The notes under the pieces: model-generated
What the model was told of the DNA's origin: nothing
The model's input: only the letters and a program-made list of their open reading frames with translations
The model's database searches: none
DNA from: Candidatus Eiseniibacteriota bacterium
GTDB lineage: Bacteria > JAFGKV01
DNA: 5,978 bases
Reading direction: 5' to 3'
NCBI GenBank assembly: GCA_025453925.1
Contig: JALOPK010000212.1
Span: 1-5,978 of the forward strand
Made by a program: the position numbers and the translations under genes
Shown here: positions 1,905-4,741 of the stretch, one piece after another
Layout: the number at the start of each line of letters is the position of its first letter
Numbering within the stretch: the first letter of the stretch is position 1

Positions 1905-3044
1905 ATGCAGTATCGACAATTCGGCACCTCCGGCCGCACGGTGTCGGCGCTGGGATTCGGCGCCATGCGCCTGCCGGTCATAGATGGTGACATGACCCAC
2001 ATCAACGAGCCGGAGGCAACCGACATGATCCGGTTCGCCATCGACCGTGGAGTGAACTACCTGGACACCGCCTACCCCTATCATGGGGGCAACAGCGAGT
2101 CGTTTCTCGGCAGGGCCTTGGCTGATGGCTATCGCCAGCGGGTCACTTTGGTCACCAAGATGCCGACATGGCTCATTGAGTCGGAGGCGGACTTCGACCG
2201 TTACCTTGACGAACAACTCGGCAGGCTGCGGGTGGATCTTGTCGACTTCTACCTTTTGCATGCGCTCAACGATCTGAGCTGGCCGAAACTGAAGGCGCTA
2301 GGCGTGCTGGCCTGGGGAGAACGGGCTGTTGCCTCCGGTCGCATCGGGGGTCTGGGGTTCTCGTTCCACGATGGTCATCCGGTGTTCATCGACATCCTCA
2401 ACGACTATGAGGGATGGGCGCTAGCCCAGGTGCAGTACAACTACATGGACGCGTCTTCCCAGGCCGGAACCGCCGGGGTGCGCGAAGCGGCCCGGCGGGG
2501 CATCCCCGTGGTCGTCATGGAACCCCTGCGGGGGGGCCAGCTGTCTCAGACGCCGCCTCTCGCGGTGCGCGACGTCTGGGATGCCGCACCATCATCGCGG
2601 ACCCTGGCGGATTGGGCGCTCCAATGGTTGTGGGATCAGCCCGAGGTTTCGGTCGTGCTCTCCGGCATGAGCACGATTCGGCAGGTGGAGGAGAACCTGG
2701 CCAGCGCGGAAAGATCCGCGGCAGGGAGTCTGACGGCTGATGAACGCGCCCACATCGAGCGCGTCAGGGAGGCCTTCATGGCACGAAAGGGCGTGCCGTG
2801 TACGGGCTGCGGGTACTGCCTGCCCTGTCCCAGCGGTGTTCGGATTCCTGAGGTCTTCGTCTTCTACAACGAGGCGCTCGTCTATGATGACCTGGCGCGC
2901 GCCCGGATGTCGTATCGCTGGGTGGATGAGGAGCACCGGGCGAGCCGTTGCTCCCGCTGCGGCCACTGTGAACCGCTCTGTCCCCAGCACATCGCTATTC
3001 CCGATCGGCTGGTCGAGGCGGAGAAGCTGCTTAGCACAGCCTAA
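1905..3044 (+). CDS. Aldo/keto reductase with C-terminal 4Fe-4S ferredoxin-like domain
   Basis: Predicted cytosolic oxidoreductase of 379 residues. An NADPH-type aldo/keto reductase barrel is followed by an iron-sulfur domain (the COG1453-like group). The N-terminus MQYRQFGTSGRTVSALGFGAMR is typical of the family. The catalytic tetrad is complete: Asp54 and Tyr59 in DTAYPYHG, Lys85 in LVTKMP, His119 in FYLLHA. The late barrel phrases MEPLRGGQL and LSGMSTIRQVEENL fit the cofactor-binding end. Two cysteine clusters follow: Cys299/302/305/308 (spacing 2-2-2, then Pro) and Cys349/352/355/359 (spacing 2-2-3, then Pro), so two 4Fe-4S centres are likely. Length is normal for the group and nothing is broken. 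The gene follows the S9 peptidase after 34 bases on the same strand with no evident terminator between, so an operon is inferred. The physiological substrate and the role of the clusters are not known from sequence. Confidence 0.95.
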   Translation: MQYRQFGTSGRTVSALGFGAMRLPVIDGDMTHINEPEATDMIRFAIDRGVNYLDTAYPYHGGNSESFLGRALADGYRQRVTLVTKMPTWLIESEADFDRYLDEQLGRLRVDLVDFYLLHALNDLSWPKLKALGVLAWGERAVASGRIGGLGFSFHDGHPVFIDILNDYEGWALAQVQYNYMDASSQAGTAGVREAARRGIPVVVMEPLRGGQLSQTPPLAVRDVWDAAPSSRTLADWALQWLWDQPEVSVVLSGMSTIRQVEENLASAERSAAGSLTADERAHIERVREAFMARKGVPCTGCGYCLPCPSGVRIPEVFVFYNEALVYDDLARARMSYRWVDEEHRASRCSRCGHCEPLCPQHIAIPDRLVEAEKLLSTA

Positions 3045-3347: not shown

Positions 3348-3385
3348 CATATAGGACACGTCCTATATTGGACGTGTCTTATATG
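3348..3385. promoter_or_regulatory. AT-rich 38-base inverted repeat, candidate tandem operator or RNA hairpin
   Basis: Arms CATATAGGACACGTCC (3348-3363) and GGACGTGTCTTATATG (3370-3385) are complementary over 16 positions with a single G/T pair (3354/3379). They flank the spacer TATATT. The element also reads as two overlapping 20-base pseudo-palindromes of the form ATATnnGAC, 2 bases, GTCnTATAT. The first (3349-3368) has perfect 9-base arms around AC; the second (3365-3384) matches at 7 of 9 positions around GT. Their centres are 16 bases apart and they share ATAT. This form suits a dimeric helix-turn-helix repressor. The AT-richness contrasts sharply with the surroundings. No regulator gene and no plausible downstream gene is present, so its target is unknown; it might be a relic promoter, a small-RNA promoter, a recombination site or simply a transcript hairpin. 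Confidence 0.55.
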
Positions 3386-3447
3386 CCTGCATTCCGGTCG
3401 GAACACCCCCTCCGCCATACCCTCGTGGCGATCCCGGCGTACCCCGT

Positions 3448-3485
3448 CTCTCGGGGCCACGGGTGTCAGCCCGCGGCCCCGAGAG
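3448..3485 (-). terminator. Strong GC-rich hairpin, possible terminator for the aminopeptidase transcript
   Basis: CTCTCGGGGCC (3448-3458) and GGCCCCGAGAG (3475-3485) form a perfect 11-base-pair stem. It continues through one A/C position (3459/3474) into CGGG/CCCG (3460-3463 and 3470-3473), closing on the 6-base loop TGTCAG. In minus-strand RNA the A/C position becomes U/G, giving an uninterrupted 16-pair stem, so minus-strand transcription is favoured. It lies about 140 bases past the aminopeptidase stop. There is no U-rich run on either side, so it is not a classical intrinsic terminator. It may work as a U-less terminator or as a 3'-end stabiliser. Confidence 0.4.
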
Positions 3486-3564
3486 CTCGATGGTGAGAGG
3501 CGTCCACCCGATCACGAGCAGGGTGCTTCTGTGCAAGGTCGCCGCGCAGGGGCCGGTGCCGCGA

Positions 3565-3625: not shown

Positions 3626-4741
3626 CTACTTCAGGACCTCGGGTAGGAACCGGCCGTCCCGGTAGAACACCTGGCCATCCGCGGAGATCGTCCCTCCCGT
3701 CCTCATGTCACAGAGCATGTCCCAATGGATGGCCGACTTGTTGATCCCGCCGGCCTCACCCATGGAATCGCCGATGGCCATATGCACCGTACCGCCGATC
3801 TTCTCGTCGAACAGCATGTTCCGCGTGAACTTGGCGATGTTGTAGTTCGTGCCGACGGCGACCTCGCCGAAGCGCGATGCGCCGTCGTCCGTGGCCAGCA
3901 ATGCATGGAGAAGATCCTCACCCTTTGAGGCCGTCGCATTCACCACTCGACCCGCGGAGATCTGGAGCCGGATGCCCTCGATCTCCTTCCCGGCATAGAT
4001 CCCCGGGAAACTGAATGTGATGAAGCCGTCGATGGCGTCATCCACCGGTGACGTGAACACTTCGCCGTCGGGGAAGTTCATCGAGCCGTCGCAGTTGATC
4101 CACTTGCGGCCCGCCACGGCGACGCGCAGGTCTGTGTCCTTCGCCAGGATATGAAGCTCCTTCTTGCCGTCCAGGAAGTCGACCCATCGGCTCTGCTCCG
4201 CGCTTATGCGCTGCCACTCCCGGATGGGATCATCGGCGTTGAGCAACCCTGCGCCGAACACGAAGTCCTCGTATTCATTGAGGCTCATTGAGGCTTCCTG
4301 CGCATCCGCATGGGTGGGGAATTGCGTGCCGCACCAGCGGAGCTGGCCATTCCCCATTCGCTCGGAGTAGACGCGACGCCAGGATGCCGCGCCCCGGCTC
4401 GACAGCTTGAGCCTTTCGGCGGGGATGCTCGAGTTGATCCGAGTATTGCGGGAGCCCCAGGACGAGATCCAGACATCGGCTTTTCCGATGACCGACTCCA
4501 TGATGAAGGACGCCTCGAGCAGTTGCTCGTCGGTGGCATGTCTGAGGCGCATCTCACCTACCTCTTGCGAGTTGATGAGCGTCTCCACGTGACCGCCGGC
4601 CTGTGTCGCCTCCCGCACCACTTCCGTGAGGAAGGGCAGCGTGACTTCGTCACCACTGACCAGCACGAAGTCATTGGGTGCTACTTTCGTCGAATAGTGA
4701 ACCAGTACGCGCGCCAGTCGCGCGAGTCGCGGATCTTTCAC
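3626..4741 (-). CDS. M29 family (AmpS/PepS-type) metallo-aminopeptidase
   Basis: Predicted cytosolic, metal-dependent aminopeptidase of 371 residues that removes N-terminal amino acids from peptides. The N-terminal half (DPRLARLARVLVHYSTKVAPND, then VLVSGDEVTLPFLTEVVREATQAGGHV) is the typical M29 opening. By family comparison the metal ligands are Glu227 (MNFPDGEVF), Glu293 (FGEVAVGTN), His320 (GGTVHMAIG), and His339 with Asp341 (SAIHWDM). The 66-residue spacing between the two Glu matches the Thermus enzyme as I recall it. The loop between His320 and His339 is about 12 residues shorter than in the Thermus/Staphylococcus type, and Met327 stands where that type has a conserved Tyr. The GTG start is set by GGGAGG 5 bases upstream and by homology; the frame stays open to 5215, but that extension is low-complexity and runs into the next gene. 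No signal peptide. It is 196 bases downstream of the secreted-protein gene and may have its own promoter, though none is clear. Confidence 0.93.
   Translation of the reverse strand: MKDPRLARLARVLVHYSTKVAPNDFVLVSGDEVTLPFLTEVVREATQAGGHVETLINSQEVGEMRLRHATDEQLLEASFIMESVIGKADVWISSWGSRNTRINSSIPAERLKLSSRGAASWRRVYSERMGNGQLRWCGTQFPTHADAQEASMSLNEYEDFVFGAGLLNADDPIREWQRISAEQSRWVDFLDGKKELHILAKDTDLRVAVAGRKWINCDGSMNFPDGEVFTSPVDDAIDGFITFSFPGIYAGKEIEGIRLQISAGRVVNATASKGEDLLHALLATDDGASRFGEVAVGTNYNIAKFTRNMLFDEKIGGTVHMAIGDSMGEAGGINKSAIHWDMLCDMRTGGTISADGQVFYRDGRFLPEVLK

Follow-up and report, generated by a model that had tools for sequence, protein, structure and literature searches.

A paired palindromic element dispersed through a Fermentibacteria genome, putatively bound by an AphA-like PadR protein

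Here, we describe a 36-bp element that recurs at tens of non-coding sites in a genome of an uncultured Fermentibacteria genus and that, judged from its sequence context, is most likely occupied in pairs by a PadR-family protein resembling AphA. With slightly better than even confidence we regard these approximately 45 dispersed sites as those of a single such protein, which would regulate its own gene at the padR copy and would form a fixed, non-promoter mark at all the others. Bacterial transcription factors are expected to act at promoters. Tens of conserved, promoter-avoiding paired sites together with one candidate binder make a possible conversion of one member of a ligand-sensing repressor family into a chromosome-organizing or transcription-boundary protein directly testable, and the little-studied phylum Fermentibacteria gains a genome-wide regulatory element.

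The window, i.e. the whole stretch of 5,978 nucleotides that was analyzed, contains one double element at 3349-3384 (ATATAGGACACGTCCTATATTGGACGTGTCTTATAT). It consists of two ATATnnGACnnGTCnnATAT palindromes, each 20 bp long, which have 4 bp (one ATAT) in common and centres 16 bp apart. A pattern scan on both strands found exact matches to ATATnnGACnnGTCnTATAT at 3349-3368 as well as at 3365-3384, and a repeat finder returned an inverted repeat (3348-3366 / 3367-3385) with arms of 19 nt that are 89% complementary. The base pattern of overlapping half-sites described in the first-pass annotation is thus confirmed, as is its statement that both flanking genes point towards the repeat. The relevant features are:

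1905..3044, + strand: aldo/keto reductase with 4Fe-4S dicluster (ferredoxin) domain, converging on the element
3349..3384, no strand assigned: 36-bp double element with 20-bp palindromes that overlap; the genome has 40 such copies, this one included (sequence, repeat finder, genome pattern scan)
3349..3368, no strand assigned: first 20-bp palindrome ATATAGGACACGTCCTATAT, putative site for one PadR dimer (exact pattern match on both strands; dimer binding inferred)
3365..3384, no strand assigned: second 20-bp palindrome ATATTGGACGTGTCTTATAT, putative site for a second dimer (exact pattern match; dimer binding inferred)
3626..4741, - strand: M29 aminopeptidase, the convergent neighbour, converging on the element

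The host genome (G000) is a MAG of 3.9 Mb in 502 contigs that is 82% complete. Its scan with the single-site pattern (up to 2 mismatches) gave 86 forward matches and that with the double pattern (up to 3 mismatches in 24 positions) gave 40, in both cases against 0 for the backwards control, so the repeat occurs far beyond chance. About four further single sites bring the host total to about 45, and the label “orphan” given to the repeat earlier has to be abandoned. Approximately 30 elements are present in G001 (Ca. Fermentibacteria Zod_Metabat.355, a MAG of the same genus in 340 contigs), and one locus of this genome (L062:3011-3062) shows a triple element, in which three palindromes follow each other every 16 bp and the last is degenerate. 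No element was detected, even with loose pattern settings, in G002, which belongs to another genus of the same family and is the only other genome compared from the phylum. Among 38 distant genomes only one yielded a single, chance-like match, and no viral contig contained two patterns. When 84,980 species genomes, from which records very near the window's own were possibly left out, were scanned for exact matches, Candidatus Fermentibacteria isolate Zod_Metabat.355 was the sole match, and a literature search for the literal motif found nothing.

The candidate binder is suggested by the position of two copies. Only two elements lie upstream of a called start at a distance of 100 bp or less, both of them at orthologous padR genes, compared with about 25% expected for random intergenic placements; the gene calls come from a custom-written caller, which means that some starts near sites may be misplaced and small genes missed. 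The padR ATG follows the end of the element at a distance of 21 bp in G000 and 18 bp in G001. In G000 the gene lies at G000:C333:426-986 (locus L047) and encodes a protein of 187 aa with 74% identity to its orthologue in G001, while the best paralogue in G002, where no orthologue was found, reaches 33%. Orthologue and element co-occur in this set of only three genomes: both are present in G000 and G001 and neither in G002. The L047 protein matches PF03551 (PadR winged helix; 60.2 bits, cut-off 27) and PF10400 (AphA-type / PadR-1 C-terminal domain; 49.9 bits, cut-off 22.4), and its closest solved relative is AphA (1yg2, E 5.8e-24). Two signature tyrosines are known for the PadR family (PMC6457526), and inspection of the AphA alignment places both in the L047 protein. 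A scan of the genome and its relatives for the motif, proposed earlier as a way to identify the binder, thus delivered many copies and points to this protein. The earlier suggestion that the overlapping half-sites suit helix-turn-helix dimers binding cooperatively, for which PadR was one of the types named, is likewise supported. The sole promoter-proximal copies are those at orthologous padR genes.

Several properties may be expected of a PadR operator of the AphA type. A palindromic site of about 16-20 bp, suited to a winged-helix dimer, and a copy at the regulator's own promoter are both seen here, whereas sites at target promoters are confined to padR itself. Those loci of other PadR genes that were examined showed no such palindrome, but this is a weak test since L100, which holds the padR element of G001, was negative too because that copy is imperfect. 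It should be added that a different regulator could give the same picture if it bound the sites while also controlling padR. In both species padR is followed by a gene for a TonB-dependent receptor with a carboxypeptidase regulatory-like domain (L047:1038-3329, L088:4178-6463), which may be cotranscribed with it.

Two characterized PadR proteins offer a comparison. AphA of Vibrio cholerae binds cooperatively to two adjacent sites with a footprint of 37 bp (PMC6855506). It resembles the system proposed here in the palindromic nature of its site, the cooperativity between adjacent sites and a footprint close in size to the 36-bp element. It differs in that its published motif is ATGCAA-N4-TTGCAT, that its sites are tied to regulated promoters while those described here avoid gene starts, and that the latter are strict pairs at a fixed spacing of 16 bp. 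LmrR from Lactococcus lactis, also a member of the PadR family, is autoregulated, and a pair of dimers has been proposed to occupy the promoter of its own gene (PMC4534193); the same arrangement is proposed here for padR. In contrast with the tens of dispersed sites found here LmrR has only few promoter targets. The cooperative footprint of AphA and the two-dimer proposal for LmrR make the occupation of 36 bp by two dimers a plausible fit. Tens of short palindromic sites spread over one chromosome and devoid of a promoter role are known for SlmA, Noc and MatP, SlmA being a repurposed TetR-type fold. The element resembles their sites in number, dispersal and the probable lack of a promoter role, but those proteins belong to other families and their sites are defined by chromosomal distribution, whereas the MAGs considered here consist of 502 and 340 contigs.

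In the mechanism we propose one PadR dimer would occupy each 20-bp palindrome, so that two dimers would lie side by side, 16 bp or about 1.5 turns apart. At the copy next to its start codon PadR would control its own gene. At the other copies a pair of PadR dimers would sit on gene-free DNA away from promoters, mostly past the 3' ends of genes, and would most likely act as a boundary or roadblock to transcription leaving those genes or as an anchor of chromosome structure, but not as a promoter switch. As nearly all sites lie away from gene starts, they probably mark or organize the chromosome rather than switch single genes. The more specific view, that a PadR/AphA-type factor was turned into a genus-specific architecture or transcription-boundary protein acting as dimer pairs on about 45 non-promoter, mostly 3'-side sites, is offered tentatively and may well prove wrong.

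A boundary or anchor role fits both the placement of the elements and their retention between species, and the placement speaks at the same time to the nearest competitor of this proposal. At all 71 loci examined the element is found in non-coding DNA, though 76-84% of the DNA is coding. Where both neighbours are in view, 20 of 50 elements occupy convergent gaps according to the custom gene calls, on which all these placement figures depend, in comparison with 13 of 97 control gaps; convergent gaps make up 16.5% of the intergenic length of G001 (p = 6.5e-5), or 24% when the last 140 bp before each start are excluded (p = 0.013). In codirectional gaps the elements lie nearer to the stop of the upstream gene (mean fraction 0.29, p 0.0006), a bias that is in large part a result of promoter avoidance (p 0.02-0.04 once 100-140 bp before starts are excluded). 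The orientation of the asymmetric centre shows no trend with GC skew. If the elements were ordinary operators of one large PadR regulon, serving small genes that escaped annotation or promoters followed by long leaders, several observations would be in line: PadR proteins repress or activate promoters, the padR copy looks like an operator and small genes can escape a gene caller. Against this stand the absence of any site less than 100 bp upstream of a called start apart from padR, a median distance of 353 bp to the facing start and the large convergent share. In addition, the neighbouring genes share no function, the commonest Pfam family accounting for 4 of 66 in G000 and 3 of 54 in G001. 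With sites away from promoters and neighbours lacking a common function a plain operator role is a poor fit, and we consider such a regulon unlikely.

How the copies vary bears on whether they spread as mobile DNA. Distinct sequences are found in 34 of 37 elements of G000 and 28 of 28 of G001, but this diversity is confined to the centre and to the columns written nn in the pattern: the nn columns vary freely (about 1.46-1.65 bits of entropy), while the 24 fixed columns show only 0.07 bits in G000 and 0.31 bits in G001. In 732 kb of G001 contigs that were chosen for holding elements, all 18 of 18 doubles were found at up to 3 mismatches and no degenerate tail of copies at 4-5 mismatches; matches at 6-7 mismatches came from true elements read out of register or, in one case, arose by chance inside a gene. 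Apart from a single C/G at either end in G000, the flanking DNA reveals no relatedness among the 71 loci. Among the loci that are orthologous between the species, two in convergent gaps serve as examples of retention, their elements being kept in 34 of 36 (L031/L066) and 33 of 36 bases (L054/L082) although the flanks align poorly. By these sequence measures the elements vary as protein-binding sites do, and they are selected sites and not recent copies of one another.

Turnover between the species is nevertheless substantial, and the two species have an element next to orthologous genes at only about seven loci. In G001 the window's aldo/keto reductase has an orthologue (81% identical) that also carries an element past its 3' end, at a distance of 40 bp versus 304 bp in the window and with another neighbour on the far side. 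The aminopeptidase orthologue (78%) is located elsewhere in G001 and lacks the element. Three related loci, two of them in G001 (L046:3380-3760, L072:2050-2440, L081:2110-2500), contain the element within partly alignable flanks, and here the element was apparently duplicated along with the DNA next to it.

REP elements are imperfect palindromes that lie outside genes and often close to 3' ends, and the dispersed, intergenic, promoter-avoiding and 3'-side occurrence of our element resembles theirs. A REP-like or MITE-like selfish palindrome that settles in gene-free DNA would also account for the turnover, and Y1 transposase genes are present. We still judge this origin to be quite improbable, as it does not predict 24 nearly fixed positions with randomized nn columns, the lack of degraded copies in G001 and of flanks in common among loci, or retention at orthologous loci with diverged flanks. 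In contrast with the REP/RAYT systems, variation and retention here point to selection on the site instead of copying, and no transposase is tied to the elements. The Y1 transposases were rejected as mobilizer, being found in all three genomes including the element-free G002.

That the element works as an RNA hairpin, either as a bidirectional terminator or as an RNA-stability element between convergent genes, is very unlikely. Its predicted fold is strong (-28.5 kcal/mol, z -7.75), but a perfect palindrome folds well by construction. The enrichment in convergent gaps would suit such a role, as would a modest covariation of the nn columns across the dyad: over the whole element they pair in 18 of 65 cases against 8.5 expected, an excess that is strong only in G001 (10 versus 3.5) and not significant in G000 (8 versus 6). 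As a guess, this pairing could stem from correction of imperfect palindromes during replication. The excess in G001 is also a point against the dimer model, since dimers binding independently do not account for it. Contrary to what a hairpin requires, the sequence itself is fixed and not the pairing alone, the elements have about 3 dyad mismatches per 18 pairs, and the two bases bordering the central ATAT are complementary in fewer G000 elements than expected by chance (9 versus 16 expected). A T run, which in an intrinsic terminator follows a GC-rich stem, is missing, and the element does not appear in the output of a terminator scan.

Two further roles put forward earlier find no support. 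A promoter of a small RNA is at odds with the lack of any common downstream sequence among the 71 loci and of any Rfam match in the window, and a relic of a lost regulated gene is at odds with retention at convergent orthologous loci while the flanks diverge. A recombination or integration site of the Xer/dif or attC type is the least probable alternative and has no positive support: despite a 6-bp centre flanked by arms of some 15 bp, the copies are single and widely separated instead of arrayed and have no neighbouring gene in common, and the excess of elements less than 500 bp from a contig end, which variable loci might produce, is slight in G000 (11 versus 5.6 expected) and not clear in G001 (5 versus 2.2). 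Perhaps the gaps around elements vary between strains.

The convergent gap of the window contains a second, GC-rich inverted repeat at 3448-3485 (CTCTCGGGGCCACGGG / CCCGCGGCCCCGAGAG), the core of which is absent from all other loci examined. The fold of 3440-3492 reaches -37.6 kcal/mol, and this repeat may be a hairpin resembling a terminator but lacking the T run.
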